Part shown: positions 4,095 to 64,000 of the stretch, in pieces
How positions within the stretch are numbered: position 1 is the first letter of the stretch
Layout of the letters: each line of letters begins with the position of its first letter
Assembly: GCF_003860405.1 (NCBI RefSeq)
Contig: NZ_CP034170.1
Location: 1,612,001-1,676,000, forward strand
Source: Nakamurella antarctica
Lineage (GTDB): Bacteria > Actinomycetota > Actinomycetes > Mycobacteriales > Nakamurellaceae
Length of the DNA stretch: 64,000 bases
Direction of reading: 5' to 3'
Made by a program: the position numbers and the translations under genes
Notes under the pieces: model-generated
What the model saw: only the letters and a program-made list of their open reading frames with translations
The model's database searches: none
What the model was told of the DNA's origin: nothing

Positions 4095-4144
4095 GTGGTC
4101 ACGGGCTCATCTCTGGCTACTTACGGGGGCTGCTCCGGCTTCCG

Positions 4145-4150
4145 TAGCAT
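4145..4150 (+). promoter_or_regulatory. Leaderless -10 element for LON-domain gene
   Basis: TAGCAT lies exactly at -12 to -7 relative to the A of the ATG at 4157, and no ribosome binding site is present. This predicts a leaderless transcript starting at the initiation codon. Confidence 0.6.
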
Positions 4151-4156
4151 GGCGAT

Positions 4157-4828
4157 ATGCCTGCCACTTCACTTCCACTCTTTCCCCTGGGCACCGCCTT
4201 GTTTCCAGGAGTCGCGCTGCCGCTCAACATTTTCGAACCGCGATATCGGAATATGGTTCGCGAGCTGATGGAGCAACCGGCAGAGTCTCGTCAATTCGGC
4301 GTGGTGGCAATCAAGGCGGGGCGCGAAGTGGGGATCAACGGCATTGATGCCCTGCATGAGATCGGTTGCACCGCAAGGATTCAACATGTCGAGGCCTATG
4401 CCGACGGGGGCCTGGAAATACTTGCGGTAGGTGCCACCCGTTTCAAGCTTGTCTCCACAGACACCTCCGATGCTCTCGTGCGCGGCGAAGTCGAGTACCT
4501 CGCGGATTCATTCTCGCCGGGCGCGGCTGCGCTGGTGGGGCCCGTGTCCCGCCGCTTCGTGAATTATCGGGACTCGCTACTCGCCGCGCAGGGCCTCGAA
4601 ATGGCCGAGGGTTCGTCCCTGCCCACAGATGCAACTCGGCTTTCCTATTTGGTGGCGAGTGCGATGATTCTGGACCTGGTAGAAAAACAAGAACTGCTGG
4701 CCTGCGCCGATGCCGAACAACGTTTGCGCCTTGAGCTGCAGCTGCTGCGCCGCGAGTCCGCAATGTTTGATCAGTTGTCGACCCGTCCCGGGGTGGAGTT
4801 GTCGTCAGAGCCCTACAGCACCAACTGA
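4157..4828 (+). CDS. LON peptidase substrate-binding domain protein
   Basis: A 223-residue stand-alone Lon N-terminal (substrate-binding) domain. The start (SLPLFPLGTALFPGVALPLN followed by IFEPRYRNM) is the family signature. No ATPase or protease domain follows, so it is not Lon itself. Such proteins are common in actinobacteria and their function is undefined; binding of unfolded or damaged proteins is an inference from the domain. The start is supported by a leaderless -10 element. It lies 62 bases after the heliorhodopsin and has its own promoter. Confidence 0.9.
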   Translation: MPATSLPLFPLGTALFPGVALPLNIFEPRYRNMVRELMEQPAESRQFGVVAIKAGREVGINGIDALHEIGCTARIQHVEAYADGGLEILAVGATRFKLVSTDTSDALVRGEVEYLADSFSPGAAALVGPVSRRFVNYRDSLLAAQGLEMAEGSSLPTDATRLSYLVASAMILDLVEKQELLACADAEQRLRLELQLLRRESAMFDQLSTRPGVELSSEPYSTN

Positions 4829-4942
4829 TCCGTATCTTTCAGGGCAAGAAGGATGACAGGGCTCGTCGCGCAAGCCATCAGGGAGCCCTCTAGCGGGCCG
4901 TTGAGCCACTGTTTCGCCCCTGGGGAACTGGGTGCCTAGCAG

Positions 4943-7624: not shown

Positions 7625-8002
7625 CAGAGCGAGCGCGTAGGCCTGTTCCGCATCCGGATCGCTGACATGCCAAGGCTTTTCGTTGACAAGCAAGTTGACG
7701 ACCCACCCCTGGTCAGTTTTTTCCAAGGACTGTAACGCGCCGCCCAACATTTCGCGAAGCTGCGCTTCCCGCGGCAGCCACAGTGCCTGTTCGGCCTCCA
7801 CCGAATCCAGAGCCCACTCGGTCGTGCCATTGAAGCCGATCACCGTGGCGCTCGGGAACTGGTGAATTTCGGCTGTCATATTGCTCAACACGAAAAAATC
7901 AGAGTCCATATCGCGATCTGCGACGACGAACCAGTCGCCGATGGCGGGTTCCCACTTAACGCCGCCTTCGTTCAGGCTTCTTGCTACTTCAATAGTGATC
8001 AC
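7604..8002 (-). CDS. Conserved actinobacterial protein of unknown function
   Basis: A 132-residue acidic, soluble protein with conserved-looking blocks [19 protein letters not shown] and [16 protein letters not shown], then [15 protein letters not shown] recognise the family from many actinobacterial genomes, where it is sometimes labelled pilus assembly protein CpaE, but nothing here resembles the CpaE ATPase, so that label is not supported. There is no signal peptide or membrane helix. It overlaps the end of ligD tail to tail and its start lies 75 bases from divergent thyA. Function unknown. Confidence 0.8.
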
Positions 8003-8064
8003 CCCGTCCAGTATTACCGAACTCTCCCACTGTGCGCGGTGGGCGGCACGGTCGAGCGCTCCAC

Positions 8065-8070
8065 TACGCT
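8065..8070 (+). promoter_or_regulatory. Near-leaderless -10 element for thyA
   Basis: TACGCT (TAnnnT type) ends 7 bases before the thyA ATG at 8078, and no ribosome binding site is seen. It supports the short start over a longer in-frame open reading frame reaching back to 7862. Confidence 0.5.
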
Positions 8071-8077
8071 GCTATGC

Positions 8078-8872
8078 ATGCAGCAGTACATGGCCCTGAT
8101 GGAAAAGATCCTGCTCGAGGGCACCGTGAAAACAGACCGCACCGGAACAGGGACTAGGTCCCTGTTCGGCTATCAGATGAGATTTGATCTGGCAGAGGGA
8201 TTTCCACTTCTCACGACAAAAAAGGTTCACCTGCGTTCGGTCATCATCGAGCTGTTGTGGTTTTTGCGAGGCGGCACCAATGTCAAGTGGCTGCAGGAGC
8301 GCGGCGTCTCGATCTGGGATGAGTGGGCGGACGCTGAAGGTGAGCTCGGGCCGGTCTATGGTCACCAATGGAGGTCCTGGCCAACTCCGGATGGCGGCAG
8401 CATCGACCAAATCGCCGCCGTTCTCGAGTCAATCCGCACCAACCCGGATTCGCGGCGCCACATCGTCTCGGCCTGGAATGTGGCGGAAGTATCTGAGATG
8501 GCTCTGCCGCCCTGCCACACGCTGTTTCAGTTCTATGTCGCCGACGGCAAACTTTCATGTCAGCTTTATCAGCGTTCAGCCGACGTGTTTCTGGGGGTCC
8601 CCTTCAACATCGCCTCCTACGCGCTTCTCACCATGATGGTGGCGAAGCAGACGGGCTTGGACGTCGGTGAGTTCGTCCACACCCTGGGGGACGCGCATTT
8701 GTACTCCAATCACATTGAGCAGGCGAAGTTGCAACTCACCCGGACGCCAAGACGACTACCGCTCCTCGAGATCGCGGACGGCGTCACGAGTTTGGACGCT
8801 TACGAATACGAGGACTTTACGGTGGTCGGATACGACCCGGACCCAGCGATCAAAGCGCCGATCGCCGTATGA
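8078..8872 (+). CDS. thyA: Thymidylate synthase
   Basis: A 264-residue enzyme, the same length as E. coli ThyA, that methylates dUMP to dTMP using 5,10-methylene-tetrahydrofolate and releases dihydrofolate. The catalytic Cys146 lies in [13 protein letters not shown]. The folate and dUMP segments [15 protein letters not shown] and DAHLYSNH are all present. The start at [10 protein letters not shown] aligns with the family start and has a TACGCT element just upstream. It overlaps dfrA by 4 bases (ATGA), so the two are translated together. DfrA recycles the dihydrofolate that ThyA produces. Confidence 0.98.
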
Positions 8873-9330
8873 GCATCACCTTGATCGCAGCGGTGTCGAG
8901 CAACGGCGTGATCGGCCGAGATAACGACTTACCCTGGCGGATCCCGGCTGATCTGAAACATTTTAAGGAGCTCACCATCGGGAAGACACTCTTGATGGGC
9001 CGGCGAACCTACGACTCCATCGGCCGAGCGCTACCCGGTCGAACCACAGTGGTAGTGACCAGGCAAGAACAGTGGAGCGCACCTGGCGTCACTACCGTCC
9101 GGTCCATTCAAGAGGCGTTGGACCTCGCGGCTGGAGATGAGCTGATGGTGGCCGGCGGCGGCGATCTGTATGCACAGTTGATGCCCACAGCTGACCGACT
9201 CGAGATCACCCACATCGCTCAGATAGTCGAGGGCGACACATATTTCCCTCATATCGATCCGGCGCAGTGGACTGAACTGAGTCGTCAAGAGGGCGACGGA
9301 TACTCATTTGTGTCCTACGGTCGAATTTAG
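8869..9330 (+). CDS. dfrA: Dihydrofolate reductase
   Basis: A 153-residue NADPH-dependent enzyme that reduces dihydrofolate to tetrahydrofolate. The N-terminal [21 protein letters not shown] segment, the [13 protein letters not shown] nucleotide-binding block and [11 protein letters not shown] are diagnostic. The length is normal for bacterial enzymes. The ATG overlaps the thyA stop (ATGA), giving the common thyA-dfrA operon. A convergent clgR-like gene begins its 3' end 35 bases downstream. Confidence 0.97.
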
Positions 9331-9365
9331 CGGCCGGAATCCACCGCAGCGGCGACCAGTCCCTA

Positions 9366-9833
9366 CTATGCGAGCGCTACTTCTTTCCCGCCTCGAGTCT
9401 TGCCGTACGGCACAACAATCCGCAGAACAGCGTCGTTACTATTTTTGCTGCCGTTCTTGACGTTGTTTTTGTTGCTGCCACCCGCAGGCTGAAGCGAGCC
9501 GTTGCGATGATCTGCCACCGGTTGACTACGAAGCAGCTCAGCATGTGCTTGGTCGTTGCTCAGAGCAGCAGACACAGTGTTCAACACATCGTGTAATTGA
9601 ACCTCGAGAGCGGCACAGATAGACGCTAGCAACTCGCTTGAGGCTTCCTTGCGACCGCGTTCCACCTCGGAAAGGTATCCCAGCGAGACATTGGCCGCAT
9701 GAGAAACATCCCGCAAGGTGCGATTTTGCCGTGTCCGAGCATCACGCAATGTTTCGCCCAGCGCATCTCTTAGCAGCACATCAACCTCCCAATCAGACAG
9801 CTCACAACCACTTTTTTCTTGCCGTCCTGTCAC
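9366..9833 (-). CDS. clgR: XRE-family transcriptional regulator, ClgR-like
   Basis: A 155-residue regulator with one helix-turn-helix (LRDVSHAANVSLGYLSEVERGRKEASSELLASI), nearly identical in pattern to ClgR, the activator of clp protease and chaperone genes in actinobacteria. The rimO-pgsA-cinA-clgR order supports this. The C-terminus ends in VALA. In Streptomyces, terminal alanines of ClgR make it a ClpP substrate, so the same feedback control is plausible here. The start given is GTG at 9833. Internal GTG codons just before VLLRDALGETLRDAR would match homologues that begin there. Confidence 0.88.
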   Translation of the reverse strand: MTGRQEKSGCELSDWEVDVLLRDALGETLRDARTRQNRTLRDVSHAANVSLGYLSEVERGRKEASSELLASICAALEVQLHDVLNTVSAALSNDQAHAELLRSQPVADHRNGSLQPAGGSNKNNVKNGSKNSNDAVLRIVVPYGKTRGGKEVALA

Positions 9834-9922
9834 CGTACTCGCTGGCGCCGACAGCCGCGCTTCAACGCCGCTATCAGGTCAACGTAGAACTGACCGGTTT
9901 CTGTTCCCTGATGCGGACAACC

Positions 9923-10468
9923 TCAGGCCGGCTGGCTCTGGGTGAGGCCGGCGAGCAGCTGGATCGCCGACCGCACGGCTGCAGCGCGAATGTCCGCACG
10001 AGTCCCGTCGGCGGCCAACTCCAGAACGCGGGAGTAATGACCTTCGCGCGGTTGCACACTCCCATCGCAGTCGGCTGCCATCGATAGCGCCACGAAGACC
10101 GTCCCGACTGCTTTCCCATCCTGAGGATCAGGTCCCGCAACTCCGGTCAAGCCAATGCCGATCGAGGATTGGCACCGCCGGCGTGTCCCTGCAGCCAGAG
10201 CCAGCGCGACGTCGGCATCAACGGCGCCCACGCGGTCAAGCAAGTGGCTATCGACACCGGCCAGTTGATGTTTGAGATCGGTGGCGTAGACGACCAGGCC
10301 GCCGCGGATCACGGCGCTGGCGCCTGGGATCTCTGTCAGGACCGCAAGCATCAATCCGCCGGTGAGCGACTCTGCGACCGATACCGTGAGCGACTTCGAC
10401 GCCAGCGCACGGAGCAGCTCTGCCACCTTGTGGTCCTCAAGTCCCACGTACGTAGACAGCGTGTTCAT
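9923..10468 (-). CDS. CinA C-terminal domain / nicotinamide-nucleotide amidohydrolase (PncC-like)
   Basis: A 181-residue stand-alone CinA C-terminal domain, expected to deamidate nicotinamide mononucleotide in NAD recycling. Family signatures are VSVAESLTGGLM, GGLVVYATDLK and GIGLTGVAGPD. The start ATG overlaps the stop of pgsA by 4 bases (ATGA), which picks this start over a longer open frame reaching 10774. It is the third gene of a rimO-pgsA-cinA-clgR run. The N-terminal molybdopterin-like half of full CinA is absent, as is usual in actinobacteria. Confidence 0.92.
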   Translation of the reverse strand: MNTLSTYVGLEDHKVAELLRALASKSLTVSVAESLTGGLMLAVLTEIPGASAVIRGGLVVYATDLKHQLAGVDSHLLDRVGAVDADVALALAAGTRRRCQSSIGIGLTGVAGPDPQDGKAVGTVFVALSMAADCDGSVQPREGHYSRVLELAADGTRADIRAAAVRSAIQLLAGLTQSQPA

Positions 10469-11070
10469 GCTGATTCGGTGGAGTTTGTCTTGTTCGTTGC
10501 CCGCTTGCGACCGGAGGCGACAATCTTTACCGCCTTGACGATGTAATCCAGGCCCGTACCGACAGTGAGCAGCAGCGCAAGGGCCATAAATCCGAATCTG
10601 AACCATTCCAGGAAACCGGGAAATGGAAGGACGTACAGACCGATGGCGCAGATTTGAACAAAGGTTTTGAGCTTGCCGCCGGCGCTTGCCGCAATCACCT
10701 CGTAGCGCAGCAGGGCGAGTCGAAGCAGCGTGATTCCAATTTCCCTGGAGAGGATGACAATGGTTACCCACCAATAAATGTCACCCAGGATCGACAGGCT
10801 TACCAGTGCCGCACCCGTCAGTGCTTTGTCAGCAATCGGGTCAGCTATTTTGCCGAAGTTTGTGATCAAACCGCGCTTACGAGCGATGTGACCGTCGTAG
10901 CGGTCAGTGATGGCGGCGATCGCAAAGATGGTCCAGGCCGCGACTCGCCACCACGGCTCGTGCCCGTCACCCTGAAACAGAAAGATCAGACCGATTGGAA
11001 CCAGCAAGATCCTGGAAACGGTCAGGATATTGGGCAGGTTGACGAGCGGAACCGGCCGATCCGGGATCAT
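10465..11070 (-). CDS. pgsA: CDP-diacylglycerol--glycerol-3-phosphate 3-phosphatidyltransferase
   Basis: A 201-residue integral membrane CDP-alcohol phosphatidyltransferase with the motif DRYDGHIAR, eight residues, G, then DPIAD (the DGx2ARx8Gx3Dx3D signature). It makes phosphatidylglycerol phosphate from CDP-diacylglycerol and glycerol-3-phosphate. Several hydrophobic segments flank the motif. The C-terminus is basic. It overlaps rimO upstream and cinA downstream by 4 bases each, so the three genes form a translationally coupled operon. A related phosphatidylinositol-type specificity cannot be excluded, but the neighbourhood favours PgsA. Confidence 0.92.
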
Positions 11071-12593
11071 CCGCGGGCACCCGCCCCATCAGGACGCGGT
11101 AGGACTTCGATCACCCTCGCTTTCAGGTCGATACCTTCTGAGCCGGTGACAATAGCGCGGACCAGATCGCCGAGCTCGACGCCGAGAGCGCCCGTGAGGG
11201 TGGTGATTCCGTCAACCTCGGGTGCCTGATGCGCTGCGCGGCCGACGATGGTGGCGCCGCTGGCATCGGAGTGCAGCCCGTCGGAGTAATCGCCAATACC
11301 GCCGTCACCATCGACCAGGACGATGACTTCGGTACCGATACGGTCCTCTGCGCGTTGGGTGACCAACTCGTCGACTAACGCTGTGATCCGCTCAACTCGA
11401 GCGGCGACCACGTCCTCCTCGAGATGATCCGGCAGATTTTCCGCTGCTGTGCCGTCCTCGTCGGAGTAGCCAAAAACCCCTACCGCGTCCATCCGTGCAC
11501 CGATCAGGAACGCTTCCAGTTCGGCCAGATCGGCTTCCGTCTCACCGGGAAAGCCCACGATCACATTGGAGCGAATTCCCGCTTCGGGGGCTGCTGCCCG
11601 AATCTGCTCGACTAGCCCGAGGAAGGACTCCCGGTTGCCGAATCGGCGCATTCGCCGAAGGACGGGTTCGGAGGCGTGCTGGAAGGACATGTCGTAATAG
11701 TCCGCGACGCCCGGGGTGTGCGCGATGGTCTGCACCAAAGACGCTTTGGTCTCCGCCGGTTGAAGGTAGGACAGGCGGACTCGGGTAATCCCAGGAACTG
11801 CAGCAAGGCGCATGAGAACAGATTCGAGCTGTCCATCCCCTGGCAAGTCCTTACCGTACGACGTGGAGTTTTCACTCACGAGGACAATTTCACGCACTCC
11901 CTGGCCGGCAAGCCAGACGGCCTCGGCGACGATCTCGTCTGCGGAGCGAGAAACGAAGGAGCCGCGGAAGGACGGGATTGCACAGAATGTGCACCGCCGG
12001 TCGCAACCAGAGGCGATCTTGAGCGGCGCGACTGGGCCCTTGTGCAGCAACTTGCGCACCAGCGTCGGGCCAGTCTGCGGGAAGGCGCCAGTTCCGTCGT
12101 CGGTGTGGGAATGGCTGGTGGTGGAATGGCTGGTGGTGGAATGGCCGGGCACTGAGATGCCCTGGGCAGCGCTGGGCCGTGACACGGGCGAAATGGGAAG
12201 GAGTGTGCGCCGGTCAACCGGTGTGTGTGCGGCTGGTCGGTGGCCGTCGATAACATCCCCCAGCAGGCCTGCTAGCTCAGGGTAGGAATCGAAGCCCAGT
12301 ACCGCATCGGCCTCGGGCAGCGCAGCCGCCAACTCCGCTCCGTAGCGCTCGGCCAGGCAGCCGACCGCAACCACCTTGGCGCCGGTGTCTGCGGCTGCCA
12401 GCAAGGTATCGATGGAGTCCTTTTTTGCGCTGGCAACGAAGGCGCACGTATTGACCACGACCACGTCAGCTGGACCATCATCCTCGACGAGCTCGTACCC
12501 ACCCAGTGCCAGGCGACCAGCAATTTCTGAGGAGTCAACTTCGTTTCGGGCGCAGCCCAGGGTCAGGAGCGAAACACGCGGCGAGGCAGACAC
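11067..12593 (-). CDS. rimO: Ribosomal protein S12 methylthiotransferase RimO
   Basis: A 508-residue radical-SAM enzyme that adds a methylthio group to an aspartate of ribosomal protein S12. It has an N-terminal UPF0004 domain ([19 protein letters not shown]), the radical-SAM cysteines in [10 protein letters not shown], and a C-terminal TRAM domain. Between the first and second domains is an unusual insertion containing two tandem HSTTS units encoded by 15-base repeats, which probably forms a disordered linker. It is the first gene of a run overlapping pgsA by 4 bases. Divergent argA starts 94 bases away. Confidence 0.96.
12107..12146 (-). repeat. 15-bp tandem repeat inside rimO
   Basis: About two and a half copies of a 15-base unit (ggaatggctggtggt on the plus strand) encode HSTTS repeats in the linker before the radical-SAM domain. 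Being in frame, copy changes would keep the gene open. Confidence 0.75.
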
Positions 12594-12687
12594 ACCTTAC
12601 AGAGTAGTCGCCTGGGGCAGACCTGATTCCCGTTCGCGCCACCGCGCGTTTCGCTCCCTTCGCGCGCGTGCACTACTCTCACAGCGC

Positions 12688-13227
12688 GTGAGAGTTGAAA
12701 CATCCGCAGCATCCCGGTCGGGCGAGGCCCAGGGGCCACAGGTCCGCCGGGCCAGACCGGCAGACGTACGACGCATCAAGCAACTAGTCGATGCCTACGC
12801 AGGTCCCATCCTTCTCGAAAAAACCCTCGCCAACCTCTATGAAGACGTCACGGAGTTCTGGGTCGCCGAGCTCGACGGCGACGTGGTTGGCTGCGGCGCA
12901 CTGCACGTGCTGTGGGAGGACCTGGCTGAGATTCGAACCGTGGCAACGGATCCGGCGCTGCGAAGCCACGGCATTGGACGCGCCGTGTGCTCTGGCATCA
13001 TCACACACGCCCGCGAGATGGGGCTGGAGCGGCTGTTCTGTCTCACCTTCGAAGTGTCCTTCTTCGCAGGCTTGGGGTTTGCGCCCATCAAGGAGCTGGA
13101 CCTGAGACCGGAGGCACTCGTGGAGTTGAGGCGGTCCTACGATGCCGGGGTGGCCGAGTTCCTTGACCTTCCGTACGTCAAACCCAACACGCTCGGAAAC
13201 ACCCGGATGCTCAAGTATCTGACCTGA
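12688..13227 (+). CDS. argA: Amino-acid N-acetyltransferase, ArgA-like (GNAT)
   Basis: A 179-residue GNAT protein resembling the short mycobacterial N-acetylglutamate synthase, which makes the first intermediate of arginine synthesis from glutamate and acetyl-CoA. It starts with the acceptor-site block VRRARPADVRRIKQLVD, has the acetyl-CoA loop RSHGIGRAVC, and ends with LPYVKPNTLGNTRMLKYL. The GTG start at 12688 is preceded by TACTCT at 12674-12679 and no ribosome binding site, so the message is probably nearly leaderless. A longer open frame into the rimO promoter region is rejected. The arginine gene argG is 43 kb away in this window. Confidence 0.85.
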   Translation: MRVETSAASRSGEAQGPQVRRARPADVRRIKQLVDAYAGPILLEKTLANLYEDVTEFWVAELDGDVVGCGALHVLWEDLAEIRTVATDPALRSHGIGRAVCSGIITHAREMGLERLFCLTFEVSFFAGLGFAPIKELDLRPEALVELRRSYDAGVAEFLDLPYVKPNTLGNTRMLKYLT

Positions 13228-13245
13228 GACGTCGGTAGATACAGA

Positions 13246-13281
13246 AAGGGGCGGCCACCGAAAGGTCGGTGGCCGCCCCTT
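13246..13281. terminator. Bidirectional hairpin terminator between argA and secG
   Basis: A perfect 15-base-pair GC-rich stem with a 6-base loop (arms 13246-13260 and 13267-13281) lies between two convergent genes. It is flanked by AA on one side and TT on the other, so it can serve both strands. Confidence 0.85.
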
Positions 13282-13292
13282 GTCGGAGACAC

Positions 13293-13553
13293 TCAGGTGG
13301 GTCGGATGGTGGAATCGACCTTCAGGATTAACCCGACCCCGATGATGGCGATAACCCAGACCAACGCTACGAAAAGCGTGAGACGGTCGAGGTTCTTTTC
13401 CACCACGCTGGACCCGGACAAGGACGACTGAACTCCGCCACCGAACATGGTCGACAACCCGCCGCCCTTACCCCGGTGCAACAGCACCAGCAGGATCAGC
13501 GCCAAGCTGGAAAGCAGCAGCACTACGTCGAGAATGACTGTGAGGATGTTCAT
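13293..13553 (-). CDS. secG: Preprotein translocase subunit SecG
   Basis: An 86-residue protein with two hydrophobic helices separated by the conserved loop LLHRGKGGGLSTMFGG. It is the small accessory subunit of the SecYEG channel. Its position after gap-pgk-tpiA is the usual actinobacterial arrangement. It lies 106 bases downstream of tpiA on the same strand and ends at a strong hairpin. Confidence 0.96.
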   Translation of the reverse strand: MNILTVILDVVLLLSSLALILLVLLHRGKGGGLSTMFGGGVQSSLSGSSVVEKNLDRLTLFVALVWVIAIIGVGLILKVDSTIRPT

Positions 13554-13659
13554 TGCCTACCTTGTGTATGCGGACAGCGTGGAGCCGACCTGGAATTTCG
13601 CGGTGTTTCTACAACCTTGGAGAGCATACCTGCAAAGTGGCAGAGACTCCGATAGGCCC

Positions 13660-14445
13660 CTAAGCCAGGATGCCCACCGTGTTGGCGCACAAGGTGGCGA
13701 ATTCGGTCGCATCCAGGCTTGCGCCTCCCACGAGTGCGCCGTCGACGTCAGCTTGGGCGACAATTTCCGCTACGTTCGCCGCCTTGACGCTTCCCCCATA
13801 GAGAACTCGGACACCCTCGGCAAGCTCTGCCGAATATTTCGTAGCGAGCGCAGCCCGAAGTGCGCCGCACACTTCTTGAGCGTCCGCCGGAGTTGCCACC
13901 CGGCCGGTGCCGATGGCCCAGATGGGCTCGTAGGCGAGAACGATGGATGCGGCCTGCTCTGCAGTCACGTCTTCAAGCGCGCCGAGCAACTGGCTGACCG
14001 AATGTTCGATCTGGTTACCGGCTTCGCGTACTTCCAGGCCTTCACCCACACACAGAATCGGCGTGAGGCCGTGTCGATAGGCGGCTTTGACTTTCGAGTT
14101 GACGACGGCGTCTGCCTCGTAATGGTTGTCCCGTCGCTCCGAGTGGCCGATAGCCACGTAGGTGCATCCGAGTTTCGCCAGCATCGAACCAGAAATATCG
14201 CCGGTATAGGCACCGGATTCGTGCGGGGAGACGTCTTGCGCGCCGTACACGAGCTTGAGCTTGTCGCCGTCGACCAAAGTCTGAACCGAGCGAAGGTCGG
14301 TGAAGGGGGGCAGCACCGCCACCTCGACCTTATCGAAGTACTTGTCTGGCAACGTGAATGCGATTTTCTGGACCAATGCGATGCCCTCCAGGTGGTTGAG
14401 GTTCATCTTCCAGTTGCCAGCGACCAAGAGCTTGCGTACTGCCAT
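13660..14445 (-). CDS. tpiA: Triosephosphate isomerase
   Basis: A 261-residue glycolytic enzyme that interconverts dihydroxyacetone phosphate and glyceraldehyde-3-phosphate. The N-terminal AGNWKMN holds the active-site lysine, AIGHSERR the catalytic histidine, and [13 protein letters not shown] the catalytic glutamate. The start is the ATG one base after the pgk stop (TGA-G-ATG), which gives the expected [15 protein letters not shown] start. The longer open frame back to 14826 lies inside pgk and is a shadow. Confidence 0.98.
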
Positions 14446-14446
14446 C

Positions 14447-15643
14447 TCAGGACTCCAATACGTTGATGCCGGGGAGTTCGCTGCCCTCGAGGAACTCCAA
14501 GGAAGCACCCCCTCCGGTGGAAATGTGGGAAAAACCAGCCTCGTCGACGCCGAGAGTGCGCACGGCTGCTGCCGAGTCGCCACCGCCGACGACGGAGAAC
14601 GCGTCCGATGCGGCGATGGCGTTAGCCACCGCTGTGGTTCCGGCCGAGAACGGTGCCATCTCGAATACGCCCACGGGCCCATTCCAGAACACTGTCTTGG
14701 CTTCGGTGAGAATCGCCGCAAAAGCAGCGCGAGTGTCGGGGCCAATATCGAGACCCTGCCAGCCGTCGGGAATCTCCGAGGCAGCGACGATCTTGGTGTT
14801 GGCATCCGCTGCGAAGGCATCAGCAATGACGAAGTCTGTCGGCAACACGATTTTGCCCGGGTAGCCCTCCAGCAACGCCTTCACGGTATCGATCTGGTCG
14901 GCCTGCAGCAACGAGTCGCCGACACCGTGACCTTGCGCAGCCAGGAAGGTATACGCCATGCCGCCACCGATCAGGATGCGATCAACCTTTGGCAGCAGCG
15001 CTTTAATCACACCCAGCTTGTCGGAAACTTTGGAGCCACCAAGGACAACGACGTAGGGGCGTTCCGGGTCGGTTGTGAGAGTGCGCAGAACCTTGGTCTC
15101 CGCCGAGACGAGATACCCGCCGTAATTGGGTAGCAACTTGGCCACGTCGTAGACCGATGCCTGTTTCCGGTGAACGACACCGAACCCGTCTGACACGAAT
15201 GCGGCCTCATCGCCGACCAAGCCTGCGAGTTCAGCGGCTAATTCTTCGCGCTCAGCCTGGTCTTTCGACGTTTCGCGCGGATCAAACCGAACGTTCTCCA
15301 GCAGTGCGACGTGCCCGTTTTGCAAGCCAGCAACGGCTGACTTCGCCGAACTGCCCGTGAGGTCGGTGGCAAAGGTTACTTCCGCGCCGAGCAGTTCGCT
15401 CAACCGGGCACGAACGGGAGCCAAACTGTATTTGGCTTCGGGTACGCCACTGGGGCGGCCCAGGTGTGCGGTAACAACCACACGGGCACCCGCCGCGGTC
15501 AACGCCCGCAAGGTGGGCAACGATGCGCGGATACGCCCATCGTCGGTGATGGTGGCACCGTCCAGCGGGACATTAAGGTCGGCGCGCACCAAAACGGTAC
15601 GGCCTGCCAAGTCGGTGGCTAAGAGGTCATCAAGGGTATGCAC
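14447..15643 (-). CDS. pgk: Phosphoglycerate kinase
   Basis: A 398-residue enzyme that transfers phosphate from 1,3-bisphosphoglycerate to ADP. The signatures [46 protein letters not shown] and [10 protein letters not shown] all occur in order. It is separated from tpiA by one base, so the two are coupled. A GC-rich hairpin lies between gap and pgk, which may make pgk-tpiA-secG partly independent of gap. Confidence 0.98.
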
Positions 15644-35867: not shown

Positions 35868-36082
35868 GTGAGTGTGTTCCTCGTTTTCTGATGTAAGACA
35901 CTGACCCAAAGCCCGCGGAGCACTACATAAATAGTGTTTCCGCCAGGAACTCCTCGACCGTTTCTCGGCTTCGGTGGGTGTGAGGTCGAAATGCGGCCCG
36001 ATGGGCAGCGTGACCTCTCTGTGTCAAGACAGTAGCGACATTTCAGGCGGTCGGGCACGGGTGCCTCCACCACAAACGCCAA
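35868..36082. other. Intergenic region upstream of the surface protein
   Basis: This is non-coding sequence between the surface-protein start and the mshC hairpin. The ribosome binding site GAGGAA lies near its left end. I see no RNA gene and no clear -35/-10 pair. Confidence 0.5.
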
Positions 36083-58562: not shown

Positions 58563-59768
58563 ATGCCAGATAACGCCGACCACAAGACCATCAGTACGGA
58601 ACCGGTCGACACGCCTGCGCACCCAGGCGTGCCCGTTCAGTACTCCGTCAACAACATCCGCAATACGGTGGCGCCGGGGATGCGTATTGCCGCCGCTTGG
58701 TCGTGGCGGATCATTGTGGTTCTCGCTGCAACTGCCCTTGTCGTGTACATCATCGGTTTTATGTCTGAACTCACGATCCCCATCGCTATTGCGCTGCTGC
58801 TTTCCGCACTTTTGACGCCGCTGAAGAACTTTCTGATCCGTAAAGGGCTCGGTGCGTCAATTGCTGCCATCGTGGTTTTCGTCTGCGGGTTAGCCGCGGG
58901 CATCGGATTAGTGACGCTTGTTGTTCGGCAGTTTATTTCGGGTGCGAAGGACCTATCCGACCAAGTAAGCGGTGGGCTCGGCAAGGTTCAGGACTGGCTA
59001 GTCACTGGTCCACTGAAGATCTCCCAAGATCAGATTGATTCTGCAACGACATCGATTAAAAACAGCGTAGTGGAAAACAAGGACTCGTTGACCTCAGGAG
59101 CACTGAATACGGCGACTTCCGCTGGCCATCTCATCACGGGGTTTGTCCTCGTGCTATTCATTCTCTTCTTCTTCTTGCGCGATGGCAGCGTGATCTGGCA
59201 CTGGTTGGTGGGAATCACCCCCGCCCAATCGAGGGTGCGACTGCGTGGAGCTGGCGAGCGAGCGTGGGCTACTTTAACGGGATATGTGCGGGCCACCGTT
59301 CTGGTGGCTTTTGTCGATGCAGTGGGCATCGGGTTGGGCTTGGTGATTGTCGGCGTGCCGCTCGCGGTCCCATTGACCGCGTTCGTTTTCCTCTCCTCCT
59401 TCATTCCCATCATCGGAGCACTGCTCAGCGGAATCGTGGCCGTGCTGGTTGCCCTGGTGGCGCTTGGACCAGTACAAGCGGTCATTATTTTGGCTGTGGT
59501 AGTTGCTGTTCAACAGCTCGAAGGCCATGTGCTGCAACCGATCTTGCTCGGCCGAGCCGTGAGCCTGCACCCTCTGGGGGTCGCACTTTCCATAGCGGCC
59601 GGTGTGATCGCCTATGGCATTACCGGCGCATTACTGGCCGTGCCGCTGGTGGCATGTATGAACGCGGCGATTAAATTTTTAGCGGGTGAAAGCCGTGCGA
59701 TGTCTACCGCATCGACCGCCTCGGCATCGAGTATTTCGACGGTATCGCAACCCACACCCGCGCCGTGA
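58563..59768 (+). CDS. AI-2E family transporter (PerM-like)
   Basis: A 401-residue membrane protein of the AI-2E/PerM family. It has about eight hydrophobic helices, the segment IPIAIALLLSALLTPLKNFL near the start, LFFFLRDG-like FILFFFLRDGSVIWHWL in the middle and LEGHVLQPILLGRAVSLHPL near the end. Substrates of this family vary and are mostly unknown. GAGGAG sits 5-6 bases before the ATG. The N- and C-terminal tails are Pro/Thr/Ser-rich. It is the last core-like gene before the accessory region. Confidence 0.93.
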   Translation: MPDNADHKTISTEPVDTPAHPGVPVQYSVNNIRNTVAPGMRIAAAWSWRIIVVLAATALVVYIIGFMSELTIPIAIALLLSALLTPLKNFLIRKGLGASIAAIVVFVCGLAAGIGLVTLVVRQFISGAKDLSDQVSGGLGKVQDWLVTGPLKISQDQIDSATTSIKNSVVENKDSLTSGALNTATSAGHLITGFVLVLFILFFFLRDGSVIWHWLVGITPAQSRVRLRGAGERAWATLTGYVRATVLVAFVDAVGIGLGLVIVGVPLAVPLTAFVFLSSFIPIIGALLSGIVAVLVALVALGPVQAVIILAVVVAVQQLEGHVLQPILLGRAVSLHPLGVALSIAAGVIAYGITGALLAVPLVACMNAAIKFLAGESRAMSTASTASASSISTVSQPTPAP

Positions 59769-59838
59769 GTTAACGTCGGTCGTAATCCGTTGGCATCGTG
59801 GAGCGGCGAGCGGAAGCTTTTCTCTCTAAGGAGCCACC

Positions 59839-59970
59839 ATGTCCAGTCCCTATTACCCCACTCGGGGTGTTGGTAACGGTACTGTCATCGGCCCCAACGG
59901 AGTCAGGGATCCGTTGACCTCTGGGCCGTCCTGTCGGTGCGTATGTGTCGGTAAATGGTCATGGGAGTGA
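59839..59970 (+). pseudogene. Small ORF, possibly the 5' end of an interrupted gene
   Basis: A 43-codon frame MSSPYYPTRGVGNGTVIGPN with an ideal ribosome binding site AAGGAG 5 bases before the ATG. From about residue 25 onward it runs through the end of the resolvase gene on the other strand. A well-initiated frame that dives into a mobile-element gene suggests a resident gene cut by an insertion. It may also be a real short peptide. The family is not recognised. Confidence 0.4.
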
Positions 59971-60490
59971 CGGCGCAGGAGGTGGCAATTTCGGCCATGG
60001 TGAACTGCCGGGCGTTGTACATCCGCTGGGCCTTGCCGATCAGCTCCGGGGTCATCTTCGGTTTCCGGCCGCCGTGGCGGCCGCGGCTGCGGGCCGCGAG
60101 CAGGCCGGCCGTCGTTCGCTCTCGAATCAAGGCTGCTTCGTAGTCGGCCATCAGGGCAAACATGCCGAACACCAGCTTGCCGTGGGCGGTGGTGGTGTCG
60201 ACGATGCCGTTGGTCAACGACTGGACGCCCACTTCCCTGCCTTCCAGGGTGGTGACGATGTCGATCAGGTCCCGCAGGTTCCGGCCGAGTCGGTCGATCT
60301 TCCAGATGACCAGGGTGTCGCCGGGTCGGAGATCCTCCTGGCATCGAATCCACTGCGGCCGGTCGGCCTTTGTGCCGGTGGCGGTGTCCGTGTACACCTT
60401 GAGGCACCCCGCGGCGCTCAGCGCGTCGAGCTGCATCTCCGGGTTCTGGTCGGCGGTGCTGACCCTGGCGTACCCGATTTTGTCTCCCAC
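59903..60490 (-). CDS. Serine recombinase (resolvase/invertase family)
   Basis: A 195-residue small serine recombinase. The catalytic serine is in GYARVSTADQN, followed by LVIWKIDRLGRNLRDL and ALIRERTTAGLLAARSRGRHGG. A C-terminal helix-turn-helix (FTMAEIATSCAVTPMTIYRHI) ends it. Such proteins resolve Tn3-type transposition or invert DNA. No transposase, res site or terminal inverted repeats are seen nearby, so this is either a remnant or a stand-alone recombinase. It borders the bacteriocin-like locus. Confidence 0.95.
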   Translation of the reverse strand: MGDKIGYARVSTADQNPEMQLDALSAAGCLKVYTDTATGTKADRPQWIRCQEDLRPGDTLVIWKIDRLGRNLRDLIDIVTTLEGREVGVQSLTNGIVDTTTAHGKLVFGMFALMADYEAALIRERTTAGLLAARSRGRHGGRKPKMTPELIGKAQRMYNARQFTMAEIATSCAVTPMTIYRHIRTDRTAQRSTDP

Positions 60491-60647
60491 GGAACGAGAG
60501 CCTATCGAAAGTCAGCGACCTAGCAGTGTTTCGTTGCGGTGATTATGTGATGAGATTGCGATAGCCCTTGTCAGGCGTCGTCGGAGGTCGCTAGCTCCCG
60601 GCGATCGGGGTCCATCACAGACGTTGGTTTGCGTTAGAGCCGAAACC
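60491..60647. other. Non-coding gap between resolvase and RHH gene
   Basis: About 160 bases upstream of the resolvase. I find no gene and no convincing res site. It probably holds the resolvase promoter. Confidence 0.4.
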
Positions 60648-60672
60648 GGGGGCGGCAAGTTCTGCCGCCTCC
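60648..60672 (-). terminator. Hairpin downstream of RHH gene
   Basis: A 10-base-pair GC-rich stem (GGCGGCA/TGCCGCC core) with a 5-base loop lies 22 bases past the stop of the 51-residue gene. Confidence 0.55.
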
Positions 60673-60694
60673 CTGTGAGTTTTGCGGTCGGGGG

Positions 60695-60850
60695 CTACTT
60701 CAGAAATACCGATCCGTTCTCTGCGATCTCCTTCTGCAGAAGTTCTAGGGCCTTGTGGATAGCATCTGTTCTGGATGTGAACTCCTGCCTGGCGACCAGG
60801 CTGTCGAGGAACTCGATATCTTTGGGCTGTAGCTCGATGGTCGTATCCAT
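60695..60850 (-). CDS. Ribbon-helix-helix (CopG/ParD-like) small protein
   Basis: A 51-residue protein with the pattern of a ribbon-helix-helix regulator: beta strand TTIELQPK, helix DIEFLDSLVARQE, turn FTSRTD, helix AIHKALELLQKEIA. The ATG comes one base after the stop of the fulvocin-like gene (TGACATG), so translation is coupled. There is no toxin partner of the ParE or RelE type beside it. It could regulate the bacteriocin operon, or be an antitoxin-like immunity factor; both are inferences. Confidence 0.75.
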   Translation of the reverse strand: MDTTIELQPKDIEFLDSLVARQEFTSRTDAIHKALELLQKEIAENGSVFLK

Positions 60851-60851
60851 G

Positions 60852-61415
60852 TCAGTTACGGCACAGACCGTTGCAGTTGTAGTTCCACCACGACCCACAG
60901 TCGACATGGTTCTGGCAGTTGGTGCTGAAGCAGTGGGTGGAGTTGTCACACCAGTCATCCTCAGTGGAGCAGGTGCAGGACCGCTGGTCAGCAGGCTGTG
61001 CCACACCGGCGGGGGTCGCGTTTTCTGGTCCGAGGACGGCCATTAACTGCCGCGTCTGGGTGCGCCCGAAGGCCTTCTCCGAAGCCGTCCGCAGCTCCTG
61101 GTCGCTGCGTGACAGCGTAGAGGTGGTGGCTACGGCAGCGAAGGTTGCTGGATTCGCTACGGTTGCCGCCGCTGAGTCCAGAACTTTTACTTGCGCGACT
61201 GTTAGCTGGCCATGGGCGGAGCGGAAGCGCGCGAGTTGCTCGATCCAGAGTTTGCTCTTGGCCGAGGGCGTCAGAGTCTGATAGATCGCCTTCCGGTACT
61301 CCATGGTGTGTGCCGTGATGGCGTCGTAGGTCGAGGGGAGGTTACTCGCGTTTGCTGCCACCCAAGCTCCGGCTTTGTCGGCGCTGGCGTAGGCGGGTAG
61401 TTTCCCGGTGACCAT
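60852..61415 (-). CDS. Fulvocin-C-like bacteriocin precursor, C-terminal part
   Basis: A 187-residue frame resembling bacteriocin fulvocin C-related proteins. A helical leader-like domain is followed by a 42-residue tail with eight cysteines at 147, 149, 156, 162, 167, 173, 181 and 185 (CTCSTEDDWC to NGLCRN). As I recall, myxobacterial fulvocin C is a 45-residue peptide with eight disulfide-bonded cysteines. Just upstream, in the same frame but without a start codon, is a Tat-like signal NRKRFLQLGAGALVAGG. It joins to the thioredoxin-like frame at 61271-61828 if one G is added at 61475-61478. Target and activity are unknown. Confidence 0.78.
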   Translation of the reverse strand: MVTGKLPAYASADKAGAWVAANASNLPSTYDAITAHTMEYRKAIYQTLTPSAKSKLWIEQLARFRSAHGQLTVAQVKVLDSAAATVANPATFAAVATTSTLSRSDQELRTASEKAFGRTQTRQLMAVLGPENATPAGVAQPADQRSCTCSTEDDWCDNSTHCFSTNCQNHVDCGSWWNYNCNGLCRN

Positions 61416-61828
61416 GAGACCACCGGCGACCAGGGCTCCGGCCCCGAGCTGCAGGAACCGTTTGCGGTTGACGGCCCCGGCGGAGTTGAAGCGAGTTCGT
61501 CAGTTGGAGACCCGTTGACCTCGCGTAATTGTCCTAGAGCTCGCAGGACGCTCAGCGTCGAACCGAGACCGAGCCGGCGGACCAACGGAACACCCATCGC
61601 TCTCCCGGTCCAGCCGCGGACTTTCTCACCGTCGACGCTAAACAGGGCCGGTTCCCACACAGCCTGGGATCCAAAAGCTTCCTCCCGCCATCGCACCACC
61701 TCCTGATGGGCCAGAGGTAGGACCTCGAGCTTCCCATCACAGGACGAGGCCATTCGAGCGGACAGTTGCCGGCACTTGGCGCACGACGCATCGAACGCGA
61801 GGACCCAACGGACTTCGGTTTTTTCCAT
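61271..61828 (-). CDS. Thioredoxin-fold CxxC (DCC/DUF393-like) domain, N-terminal part of fulvocin-like gene
   Basis: From the ATG at 61828 the first 105 or so residues form a thioredoxin-like domain (RWVLAFDASCAKCRQLSARM, with CxxC; VWEPALFSVDGEKVRGWTG). After about REVNGSPTDELA the frame turns into low-quality Pro/Ser sequence, because it overlaps the Tat-like signal and start of the fulvocin-like frame. The natural product is probably one protein: CxxC domain, Tat-like signal, leader, Cys-rich tail. The upstream in-frame stretch to 62041 runs into the divergent GntR gene and is rejected. Confidence 0.7.
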   Translation of the reverse strand: MEKTEVRWVLAFDASCAKCRQLSARMASSCDGKLEVLPLAHQEVVRWREEAFGSQAVWEPALFSVDGEKVRGWTGRAMGVPLVRRLGLGSTLSVLRALGQLREVNGSPTDELASTPPGPSTANGSCSSGPEPWSPVVSWSPGNYPPTPAPTKPELGWQQTRVTSPRPTTPSRHTPWSTGRRSIRL

Positions 61829-61842
61829 GGACCGGACGCTAG

Positions 61843-61861
61843 CACTACTAGTCAAATAGTG
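61843..61861. promoter_or_regulatory. Candidate GntR operator between divergent units
   Basis: CACTA and TAGTG arms, 9 bases apart, lie in the 46-base gap between the bacteriocin-like gene and the GntR gene, and TAGTG recurs at 61865-61869. This is a natural site for control of both units by the GntR protein, but binding is inferred. Confidence 0.4.
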
Positions 61862-61874
61862 GAATAGTGAAGAA

Positions 61875-62267
61875 ATGATCCGATTCACTTTGGACCCCCA
61901 GTCCGGCGTCTCCACGTATCTGCAGCTTGTCCACCAGGTCAGACACGCCATCAGGCTGGGTTTGCTGGCCCCCGGCGACCAGCTACCGACCGCTAAAGAT
62001 GTTGTCGCGGACCTAGCCATCAATCCCAATACCGTCCTCAAGGCCTACCGCGACTTGGAACGCGACGGTCTGGTGCAACCCCGGCCCGGGCTGGGAACCT
62101 TCATCAGTGCGACTCTGGGTGATAGTTCACGAGCTGAGAAGGCCCGACTGCAGGAGGAGCTTTCGGACTGGGTGCGTGATGCACTTGAAGCGGGGCTGGA
62201 GCAGGAGGACATCCGGGCGCTGTTCAGCCGTGCATTGCTTGACATCGCCACGAGGGAGTCAGCATGA
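61875..62267 (+). CDS. YtrA-like GntR family regulator
   Basis: A 130-residue regulator, the short YtrA-type with only a winged helix (YLQLVHQVRHAIRLGLLAPGDQLPTAKDVVADLAINPNTVLKAYRDLE, quoted in part) and a brief C-terminal helix region. This subfamily usually sits in front of ABC transporter genes and responds to cell-wall-active compounds. Its stop overlaps the ABC ATPase start by 4 bases. It is divergent from the fulvocin-like gene, 46 bases away, so it may control both. Confidence 0.9.
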   Translation: MIRFTLDPQSGVSTYLQLVHQVRHAIRLGLLAPGDQLPTAKDVVADLAINPNTVLKAYRDLERDGLVQPRPGLGTFISATLGDSSRAEKARLQEELSDWVRDALEAGLEQEDIRALFSRALLDIATRESA

Positions 62268-63247
62268 AGAGCCCCACAACCATCGGCACGGCCAGATTGA
62301 GTTCGGTGACCGCCCTACCGGACCTGCGAAATTGCGAGCTGGAGATCACGGTGTGCCCGGCCATCGAAACCTTTCAGCTGGGCAGACGTTATCGGGGACG
62401 CGCCGCGCTGCATGACTGCTCGATGAGCATCCCGCAGGGCCGGGTGGTGGCGTTGGTCGGTCCGAACGGCTCCGGTAAAACCACGTTGCTGCAGTTGGCC
62501 GTGGGACTGCTGGCCCCGTCGACCGGGACGATCCGGGTTCTTGGCCGCACCCCTGGGCCGGACCTGACCACGCTGAGCAACGTCGCGTTCCTACCTCAGG
62601 AGAAGCCCCTGTACGCCGGTTTCACGGTCAAGGAAATGTTAAAGCTTGGCCAGCGGCTCAACCCTTCCTGGGATGATGAGGCCGCCCGCCGCCGTCTGGC
62701 CGGGCTAAATATCGCCTTAAGCTGGCGGATCGGGAAGCTTTCCGGGGGGCAACACACCCAGGTTGCGCTGACCCTGGCCCTGGCCAAACGCCCGAAACTG
62801 CTGCTGCTCGATGAGCCGTTGGCGGACCTGGACCCGCTGGCCCGGCACGAGGTCATGGCATCGGTCATGACCGCCGTCGCCGAAGACCAACTCACCGTCG
62901 TCCTGTCGTCCCACGTGATGCCTGATCTGAAGGAAACTTGCGATTGGTTGGTGGTGCTCAATAACGGCCGTGTCCAGGTCAGCGGTGATATCACCGACCT
63001 ATTGGAAGACCACCAGGTGCTCACCGGACCGCTCGAACTGGCCGACCACCTGAACTCCCGGATCGAGGTGGTCGACGAGATCCGCACCGACCGTCAAGTC
63101 ACCATGCTGGTGCGACACGCACAACCCCGTTGCATCCTGGACCCCCGGTGGGAAACCCGTCCGGTCGGCTTGGAGCAACTGGTGCTGGGCTATATGCGCG
63201 CTCCCGGGCAGTCCACCTTTCAACACCCCGTTGCGGCGAGGTCATGA
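62264..63247 (+). CDS. ABC transporter ATP-binding protein
   Basis: A 327-residue ATPase. An untypical 45-residue N-terminal stretch precedes the fold. Walker A is LVGPNGSGKTT, the Q-loop is VAFLPQEKPLYAGFT, the signature is KLSGGQHTQ and Walker B is LLLLDEPLADLDP. The C-terminal 90 residues are an accessory domain. It is cotranslated with the GntR gene and followed by a permease gene 16 bases later. Export of, or immunity to, the adjacent bacteriocin-like product is possible. Confidence 0.93.
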   Translation: MKSPTTIGTARLSSVTALPDLRNCELEITVCPAIETFQLGRRYRGRAALHDCSMSIPQGRVVALVGPNGSGKTTLLQLAVGLLAPSTGTIRVLGRTPGPDLTTLSNVAFLPQEKPLYAGFTVKEMLKLGQRLNPSWDDEAARRRLAGLNIALSWRIGKLSGGQHTQVALTLALAKRPKLLLLDEPLADLDPLARHEVMASVMTAVAEDQLTVVLSSHVMPDLKETCDWLVVLNNGRVQVSGDITDLLEDHQVLTGPLELADHLNSRIEVVDEIRTDRQVTMLVRHAQPRCILDPRWETRPVGLEQLVLGYMRAPGQSTFQHPVAARS

Positions 63248-63263
63248 CCAGGAGGGAACGACC

Positions 63264-64000
63264 ATGCTGTGGCTAACGCTCCGCCAGTACCGCACTCACC
63301 TGCTCGCCACCGGGGGCATTCTGTTGGCCTTGGCCGCGGTGCTACTGATCCATGGCCTGCTGACCCAATCGTTCATCGCCCAGTCAGCGCCGTTGGGTTG
63401 CCCGTCAACGGCGGCTCGTTGCACCGCCTTCGACCAGCAACTCAAAGGTCGCTATCAACAACTTCAGCCGCTGTTGCAGTACCTGCCCCTGCTCCCTGCC
63501 CTATCGGGGCGTTCTGGGGTGCGCCGTTGCTGGCCCGGGAATACGAACGAGGCACCTACAAACTCGTCTGGACGCAAACAGTTTCACGGCAGAAGTGGCT
63601 GACAGTAAAGCTCAGCGTCATCGGCGCGGCCGCGGCGGTGGGTGGCCTGGCACTGGGTTTGATGATCAGTGCGTGGCTCTCCGTGTTCCGCGGGACCACT
63701 TTCCCCGGCGTCTACCCGGACCGCAGCTTTTTTGAACTCCGTGGAATTGTGCCGGCCGGCTGGTGGCTGTTCTCGTTCATGATCGGCGCCGCCGCTGGCG
63801 CTGTGATCCGCCGGACCCTACCGGCCATGGCCGTCACCATCGTGCTGGCCGTCGCGTTGCTCATGTCATTCAACTCTGCCCGTGACTACGTCTACGCGGC
63901 CCCCGACCAGCTGGTGGTCACCACGCTGCCCGTATCGGCGGCAATACCGGTCGGGTCGTCCTACGTCGACTCGTGGTGGCTTGATCCGCAGGGTAACGCG
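63264..64000 (+). CDS. ABC transporter permease, frameshifted and cut by window end
   Basis: From the ATG at 63264 (AGGAGG about 10 bases upstream) the frame encodes a first membrane helix (GGILLALAAVLLIHGLLT) and a second start of helix (LLQYLPLLPAL). Near 63501 it loses phase. From there the next frame reads on to the window end with permease-like sequence (GAFWGAPLLAREYERGTYK, LVWTQTVSRQKW, then further helices) and no stop. One inserted base near 63501 restores a single membrane protein. It is the partner of the ATPase before it. Confidence 0.75.

Follow-up and report, generated by a model that had tools for sequence, protein, structure and literature searches.

What brings together, within a few kilobases (kb) of chromosome, a gene for a cysteine-rich protein related to the bacteriocin fulvocin C, a small ribbon-helix-helix (RHH) gene and a divergent regulator and transporter pair was the question raised by a locus in the genome of Nakamurella antarctica (RefSeq assembly GCF_003860405.1; one contig, NZ_CP034170.1, referred to below as G000:C1; 3,377,955 bases, 98% complete). 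The locus was met in a stretch of 64,000 nucleotides (contig positions 1,612,001 to 1,676,000, hereafter the window), and positions are those of the window unless the contig or another locus is named. An initial annotation had read 60695-63247 as a self-contained five-gene bacteriocin unit. With open reading frames listed on both strands of 59500-64000, the parts that the annotation named proved real, but the span it described leaves out what defines the locus, namely a resolvase, a terminal repeat and a transposase; judged from the sequence, the locus is almost certainly what a complete Tn3-family transposon carries as passenger DNA. The fuller reading set out here, in which the transposon has joined two separate modules, and which includes how the cargo would work, we hold to be moderately probable.

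The transposon was delimited by an inverted-repeat search as an element of 7,735 base pairs (bp) that runs from window position 59864 to G000:C1 1679598 and ends past the window, the window from 59864 onwards holding its left part. On a stretch of the same contig reaching beyond the window end (L023, G000:C1 1668001-1686000), the inverted repeats border 3864-11598; the 38-bp terminal repeats are identical at 33 of 38 positions, and both ends are bordered by the 5-bp target-site duplication CACTC. A 5-bp duplication is the usual size for the Tn3 family. With a DDE transposase of about 1,000 amino acids, terminal inverted repeats of about 38 bp, the 5-bp duplication and a serine resolvase, the element has features by which the family is defined, and a candidate for the res site can be proposed. 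In order along the contig, the element and its left border comprise:

59839-59863, plus strand: 5' end of a host membrane-protein gene, its last five bases (59859-59863) being the left copy of the duplication CACTC
59864-59901, plus strand: left 38-bp terminal inverted repeat (33/38 against the right repeat)
59903-60490, minus strand: serine resolvase TnpR, 195 amino acids (PF00239, 140.4 bits)
60491-60694, no strand assigned: candidate res site, proposed from short dyads in the 204-bp gap between tnpR and the RHH gene and, for its position, by analogy with Tn3 elements in the part of PMC7157771 consulted
60695-60850, minus strand: RHH protein of 51 amino acids, 1 nucleotide past the stop of the cysteine-rich tail (RHH_1, 20.1 bits)
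60852-61484, minus strand: hydrophobic signal-like segment, middle region and 8-Cys tail (NF033852, 114.6 bits)
61487-61828, minus strand: N-terminal CxxC (thioredoxin-like) domain in a different frame from the tail, near-identical to the CxxC part of the database protein P0004
61829-61874: divergent gap of 46 bp between the CxxC start and gntR, with ACTA-N6-TAGT at 61847-61860
61875-62267, plus strand: small YtrA-like GntR regulator, 130 amino acids (PF00392, 54 bits)
62264-63247, plus strand: ABC ATPase, 327 amino acids (PF00005, 90.6 bits)
63231-64000 and on to G000:C1 1676288, plus strand: ABC-2 permease gene, its frame broken near 63494 (PF12679, 34.4 bits)
G000:C1 1676553-1679525, minus strand: tnpA, Tn3 transposase of 990 amino acids (PF01526, 388.5 bits)
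G000:C1 1679561-1679598, past the window end: right 38-bp terminal repeat (33/38 against the left repeat)

The element thus resembles the Tn3-family transposons treated in the consulted part of PMC7157771 in its 990-residue TnpA with a Tn3 DDE domain, its serine resolvase, its 38-bp terminal repeats and its 5-bp duplication. It differs from them in what it carries: the passengers named in that part of the source are genes for resistance, virulence, catabolism and toxin-antitoxin pairs, whereas the cargo here consists of a fulvocin-related gene, an RHH gene and a GntR-ABC module. The target sequence indicates that the transposon inserted into a small membrane-protein gene that is uninterrupted in relatives. 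Removing the transposon in an empty-site join restored a single membrane-protein frame of 184 amino acids, the rest of the interrupted gene being located past the end of the window, at L023 11604-12133. Fourteen of 16 congeners have homologues of this downstream part; of seven congener loci aligned to the rejoined protein, three (L132, L133 and L135) have alignments that begin at residue 1 and run through the junction, while in four the alignment begins at residue 18-30.

Two related transposons were recovered, one of 11,060 bp in genome G520 (L128, 31-11090; TnpA 82% identical; perfect duplication TACTT/TACTT) and one of 10,673 bp in genome G706 (L127, 7470-18142; perfect duplication GAGTA/GAGTA; transposase match in two pieces). 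Compared with the left repeat of the window transposon, their terminal repeats differ at 9 and 11 of 38 positions, and their cargo is unlike that of the window, with an MFS-like (major facilitator superfamily) transporter open reading frame (ORF) and an ABC-transporter-like ORF recognised by eye. The nine best plasmid relatives of TnpA (H1-H9, 61.2-73.5% identical) came from Streptomyces, Rhodococcus, Nocardia and Pseudonocardia, and a TnpA match at E <= 1e-100 was obtained in 13 of the 397 genomes sampled from the order, the present genome included.

The first module of the cargo is the fulvocin-related gene with its coupled RHH gene. The minus-strand ORF 60852-61484, which contains the hydrophobic segment 'RKRFLQLGAGALVAGG' and eight cysteines in its tail, matched the NCBIfam family NF033852, 'bacteriocin fulvocin C-related protein', over 150 of 150 profile positions at more than three times the curated cut-off of 35 bits. 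The fulvocin-C-like assignment and the 8-Cys tail of the initial annotation were thereby borne out, and the CxxC ORF (61487-61828, minus strand) that it placed with them is present; the two parts lie in different frames in this assembly, where a break separates the CxxC domain from the tail but leaves the NF033852 part itself intact. The whole profile is matched and Streptomyces plasmid records carry the same family name, but the NCBI profile spans only the C-terminal part, with the CxxC domain and the signal-like segment outside it, and the window copy is frame-broken. Fulvocin C of Myxococcus fulvus, reportedly described by Tsai and Hirsch in 1981, is small and has eight cysteines. The likeness to it is by NCBIfam name only; the cysteine tail of the window differs in closing a precursor of about 325 amino acids, and is known here from sequence alone. 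Fulvocins are counted among the few known myxobacterial RiPPs (ribosomally synthesised and post-translationally modified peptides) in the part of PMC8708641 consulted, and the family name is used as a search word in that of PMC12333140.

Five relatives of the tail part were found among 5.8 billion proteins searched, the nearest being P0004 (a cluster of 32 members), which is 99% identical and carries CxxC domain and tail in a single frame of 325 amino acids. In the order sample of 397 genomes, the tail-only NF033852 profile matched at 18 other places, 17 of which are open frames of 321-403 amino acids that also match P0004 in its CxxC part; the remaining place, L031, holds a split copy. This proportion is the unselected figure for the fusion of CxxC domain and tail. 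Named genomes contributed 33 loci, from genera that include Kutzneria, Actinokineospora, Streptomyces, Nocardia and Nonomuraea; the last of the 33 is a weak match without the CxxC part in a Bacteroidetes genome. For a comparison of full-length relatives, 46 proteins were chosen that are single-frame, at least 290 amino acids long and cover P0004 residues 10 to 300, the fusion among these being present by selection. They include close pairs, for example within L024-L026, L027/L028, L046/L049 and the two copies each in L053 and L056; left out were five duplicate loci, L119 (like L113), the split copies of the window, L031, L066 and L072, and the partial copies L067-L070, L073, L117 and L118. A CxxC motif lies near the N-terminus in all 46, 45 have a best hydrophobic window beginning at residue 106-141, and the last 75 residues hold exactly eight cysteines in 33 (range 4-14). 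In a 31-row alignment (A5) both CxxC cysteines and four tail cysteines are invariant and the others nearly so, and NF033852 was matched by all 31 aligned relatives at E <= 0.1. The predicted family architecture is therefore an N-terminal thioredoxin-like domain, for which the evidence is weak, an internal signal or anchor, a middle region and a cysteine tail. The only strong hydrophobic segment follows the CxxC domain, so that the domain most likely faces the reducing cytoplasm and probably stays there, and because of this the role in forming the tail disulfides that the initial annotation gave it appears doubtful.

The distribution of the family is patchy, with members in 4 of 61 relatives and 14 of 397 genomes of the order, own genome included. 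One of 396 genomes in a phylum-wide sample exceeded the cut-off, namely the present one, two weaker matches falling below it, and a first scan of genome contigs gave 48 matching stretches, none of which was confirmed. The gene was found on ten Streptomyces plasmids. A phage origin was considered and rejected: a search of 50,697 phage records gave nothing at E <= 1e-5, and of 80 viral-contig stretches that matched a pattern none was confirmed.

Is such a protein a bacteriocin at all? It might instead be an envelope redox or developmental protein, membrane-anchored and thioredoxin-like with a disulfide-rich extracellular domain, a reading that we regard as somewhat unlikely. It would suit the finding that 17 of 18 tail-profile places have the CxxC domain fused to the tail, unusual in our judgement for a bacteriocin precursor, and the acidic tail (last 42 residues of P0004: one K or R, five D or E); many antimicrobial peptides, unlike this tail, are cationic. 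It would also suit the neighbourhoods: when ORFs within 7 kb were compared all-against-all (51 loci fetched, five duplicates dropped), no neighbour family such as an immunity gene occurred in more than 7 of 46 loci among the 30 largest clusters, and a conserved immunity or maturation neighbour was rejected. One further large cluster (42 loci, 108 ORFs) was set apart, the 14 members listed being out-of-frame shadows of the fulvocin gene itself. Against this stand the membership in a family named for fulvocin C and the patchy distribution, plasmid copies and adjoining paralogues with differing tails (L053 and L056), features more to be expected of a competition gene than of a housekeeping one.

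The second module, divergent from the first, is headed by the YtrA-like GntR gene, which begins exactly 46 bases from the CxxC start and is followed by the ABC genes, just as initially annotated. It resembles YtrA-type operons (ytrGABCDEF of Bacillus subtilis, in the part of PMC12772383 consulted, and PmtR/PmtA by NCBIfam) in having a small GntR gene, then an ABC ATPase and an ABC-2 permease, with an operator-like palindrome upstream. It departs from them in being transposon cargo and divergent from a bacteriocin-like gene, and in its scores, since the regulator reached 41 against a cut-off of 200 for PmtR and the ATPase 136.3 bits against a cut-off of 350 for PmtA, its best NCBIfam relative. 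The B. subtilis operon is induced by inhibitors of the lipid II cycle, and its authors, in the same part of that source, see no dedicated antibiotic defence in it.

Relatives of the window GntR were found in 11 of 16 congeners at E <= 1e-10. Nineteen such loci were read, and in 14 of them, from nine genomes, an ABC match lies directly beside a GntR gene whose product is 45-60% identical to that of the window. Because the GntR-ABC pair thus occurs in at least 9 of 16 congeners and NF033852 in none of the 16, the arm reads as a module in its own right. The 46-bp gap contains the palindrome ACTAGTCAAATAGT (61847-61860), whose pattern, ACTA-N6-TAGT, occurs twice in the window against 0.06 expected; upstream of gntR in the 14 congener loci, seven exact and two one-mismatch copies were read by eye. 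Since the palindrome is found both in the gap and before congener gntR genes, the GntR protein plausibly regulates its own gene through this operator-like motif, and it could possibly influence the fulvocin promoter across the shared gap too. A second perfect palindrome like the gntR operator motif, CACTACATAAATAGTG, lies at 35921-35936 near other genes. Simple promoter and terminator scans of 59840-62300 found none of either, the shuffle means being 0.4 and 1.9.

Whether the two modules form one system was judged from the surroundings of other fulvocin genes. The initial annotation had stated beforehand that the link would be accidental if fulvocin homologues occurred routinely without the GntR-ABC arm, and this is what was found: none of 45 other non-redundant fulvocin loci had a GntR match within 5 kb, three having one at 5.8-8.7 kb (tblastn with the window proteins at E <= 1e-3, with which remote GntR proteins could be missed; the 45 include partial and split copies, and some flanks are shorter than 5 kb). 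An ABC match lay within 5 kb at four of the 45 (L042, L052, L057 and L059). Near fulvocin genes, ABC matches came to about 1 per 105 kb (422,098 flank bases), set against 94 in the 3,377,955 bases of the own genome, the two rates coming from different programs; enrichment was not seen. Five of the ten Streptomyces plasmid copies were examined, and their neighbours were unrelated, with no GntR, ABC or RHH match. An RHH partner was found at one other locus, L033. As a conserved unit, the self-contained five-gene system is not supported by these comparisons.

A Tn3 context was likewise sought for the other fulvocin genes and discarded as a general feature, L045 being the only case among the same 45 loci. 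There, in Nonomuraea sp. SBT364, a Tn3-type transposase match (51%) at 12136-15034 lies about 1.2 kb downstream of a fulvocin-related gene (10001-10981); of 74 inverted repeats there, the 25 longest included no pair resembling the ends of an element, and a scan with the repeats of the window element showed none either.

The comparison bears directly on a co-adapted bacteriocin system of the kind originally proposed, in which the GntR protein would control both arms and the ABC transporter would export the peptide or give immunity. Both arms are on one mobile element and have in common the 46-bp gap with its operator-like palindrome, the ATPase has a peptide exporter (PmtA) as its best NCBIfam relative, though far below cut-off, and an ABC match lies within 1.6 kb at two other fulvocin loci (320 nucleotides away in L052 and 1,567 in L042). 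The 0 of 45 and 4 of 45 loci with GntR and ABC matches tell against it, as does the GntR-ABC pair in congeners that have no fulvocin gene, and fulvocin relatives without a nearby transporter presumably manage regardless. We consider a co-adapted system unlikely, and that the two cargo arms cooperate at all is about equally doubtful.

The RHH gene, annotated from the start as coupled to the tail, has a better claim to belong with its neighbour. Its product scored 20.1 bits for RHH_1, just under the Pfam cut-off of 20.5, and the homologue P0014 scored 23.0, above it. In L033, a second RHH gene lies 23 nucleotides downstream of the fulvocin-related gene (E 3.4e-6 among 13,580 stop-to-stop frames, using a profile of five close RHH proteins with L033 left out), its product being 36% identical to the window RHH over 45 residues. 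The N-terminal extension of a further RHH protein, P0012 (86%; its contig is of 12,232 bp), is an out-of-frame reading of a fulvocin 3' end, and P0015 (RHH) and P0005 (fulvocin-related) come from jgi contigs that are both 5,987 long, probably one and the same. The RHH partner is real, the pair being found again in one distant genome, and two contigs from metagenomes probably carry it as well. Close RHH relatives were not found in 297 other genomes at E <= 1e-6, a threshold that would miss remote ones such as that of L033. L033 (G033:C1) also carries a zeta-toxin gene (5451-6323; PF06414, 107 bits) just upstream of the fulvocin-related gene (6386-7423) and the RHH gene (7447-7617), and the three possibly form an operon.

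That the RHH gene is instead an orphan antitoxin left from a toxin-antitoxin module of a Tn3 element, its fulvocin link being due to chance, has some background in the family, since the consulted part of PMC7157771 gives type II toxin-antitoxin pairs in 39 of 190 Tn3-family transposons, several with RHH/ParD antitoxins. Weak ParD-like scores (17.5 against a cut-off of 46.2 for TIGR02606) speak for it as well, and a toxin gene does adjoin the second RHH-fulvocin pair, that of L033. However, none of the eight ORFs scanned in the window region matched a toxin family, and an RHH gene follows a fulvocin gene three times over, at 1 nucleotide here, at 23 nucleotides in L033 and on the P0012 contig, where the out-of-frame extension reveals it. 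We find the orphan explanation improbable.

It is very unlikely that the frame break in the fulvocin gene is natural and meaningful, giving two coupled proteins or a recoded one: L031 is split near the same linker (residues 133-138) and P0008 and P0005 start as tail-side frames, but the near-identical P0004 and 17 of 18 tail-profile places are single-frame, which also led us to drop programmed recoding as the default reading, the nearby permease is broken too, as its homologue matches show, and L066 and L072 are further broken copies. The break may come from sequencing error, real decay or both.

The reading that we favour is thus of a transposon carrying two cargo modules, (a) the fulvocin-C-related gene with its coupled RHH gene and (b) the divergent GntR - ABC ATPase - ABC-2 permease module. 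The predicted product of the fulvocin gene is a precursor that would begin with a thioredoxin-like CxxC domain kept in the cytoplasm, continue with an internal segment, serving as signal or anchor, that has an A-x-A-like motif at its end, and finish with a C-terminal domain. The 8-Cys tail of this last domain would form its disulfides outside the cell and act as a bacteriocin-like peptide. The RHH protein would repress or autoregulate its own operon. The GntR-ABC module would have evolved separately, as an autoregulated envelope module belonging to the host genus or to a relative of it, and been picked up by the transposon; with its operator in the shared 46-bp gap the GntR protein may act on the fulvocin promoter as well, and the pump may afford the carrier of the transposon some protection.

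Several results weigh against this proposal. The activity, secretion and processing of the fulvocin tail are predictions. The likeness to thioredoxin is weak, with a best E-value of 0.026 for a PDB thioredoxin profile (profile positions 16-86) and Pfam Thioredoxin matches in 4 of 31 relatives, the best of them at E 0.0057. The Tat-like (twin-arginine translocation) signal of the initial annotation was loosely named: an R-x-x-F/L-L/F pattern is common among the 46 full-length relatives, with RK in 16, another R-x-x in 20 and none by pattern in 6, but a true RR occurs in only 4, and the hydrophobic window is internal rather than N-terminal in 45, which is not what a Tat substrate would have. Beside fulvocin genes, RHH was seen at only one other locus, L033, among 58 scanned (duplicates and own included). 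The palindrome pattern is missing from 5 of the 14 congener gntR upstream regions, and a slightly longer form of it is not enriched genome-wide, with eight places and 15 strand hits against 29 for a backwards control. Finally, two broken cargo frames may mean that this copy is inactive, or they may be assembly errors.

In the open-access literature, judged mostly by title or the start of the abstract, no report of a Tn3-borne bacteriocin was recognised, nor was a description found of the full fulvocin C-related architecture (CxxC domain, internal signal-like segment, Cys tail), of the RHH partner in two lineages or of a bacteriocin-like gene as Tn3-family cargo, although reports elsewhere are quite possible. 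What looked like a new five-gene bacteriocin system becomes, through the analysis, a defined mobile element that can be put to the test, and if the cargo really is a weapon plus a shield it would extend the known cargo range of Tn3-family transposons. A bolder generalisation would make Tn3-family transposons vehicles for bacteriocin-like competition modules, which arm and protect their carrier together and spread by killing kin that lack the transposon, here through an RHH-repressed, thioredoxin-fused disulfide peptide and an envelope-stress GntR-pump arm controlling both promoters from the 46-bp operator region; this we think quite unlikely.

Some members of the fulvocin family showed surroundings or arrangements of their own. 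On a Rubrobacter radiotolerans plasmid (L117, 3989-5149) and a Thermomicrobium roseum plasmid (L118, 4001-5020), genes have their CxxC-side half in common with the family and an unmatched tail, and both lie near genes for an S8-family peptidase and a response regulator. Paired fulvocin-related genes are divergent in Actinokineospora fastidiosa (L053) and tandem in Streptantibioticus parmotrematis (L056) and Streptomyces violaceus (L066), both copies in the last being broken. In three loci of one genus (L024, L025 and L026; g268 of family f14) the fulvocin-related gene is followed by short CsoR-like, rhodanese-like, longer sulfur-type and TauE-like membrane ORFs, recognised by eye, and these surroundings are possibly a sulfur or persulfide neighbourhood.

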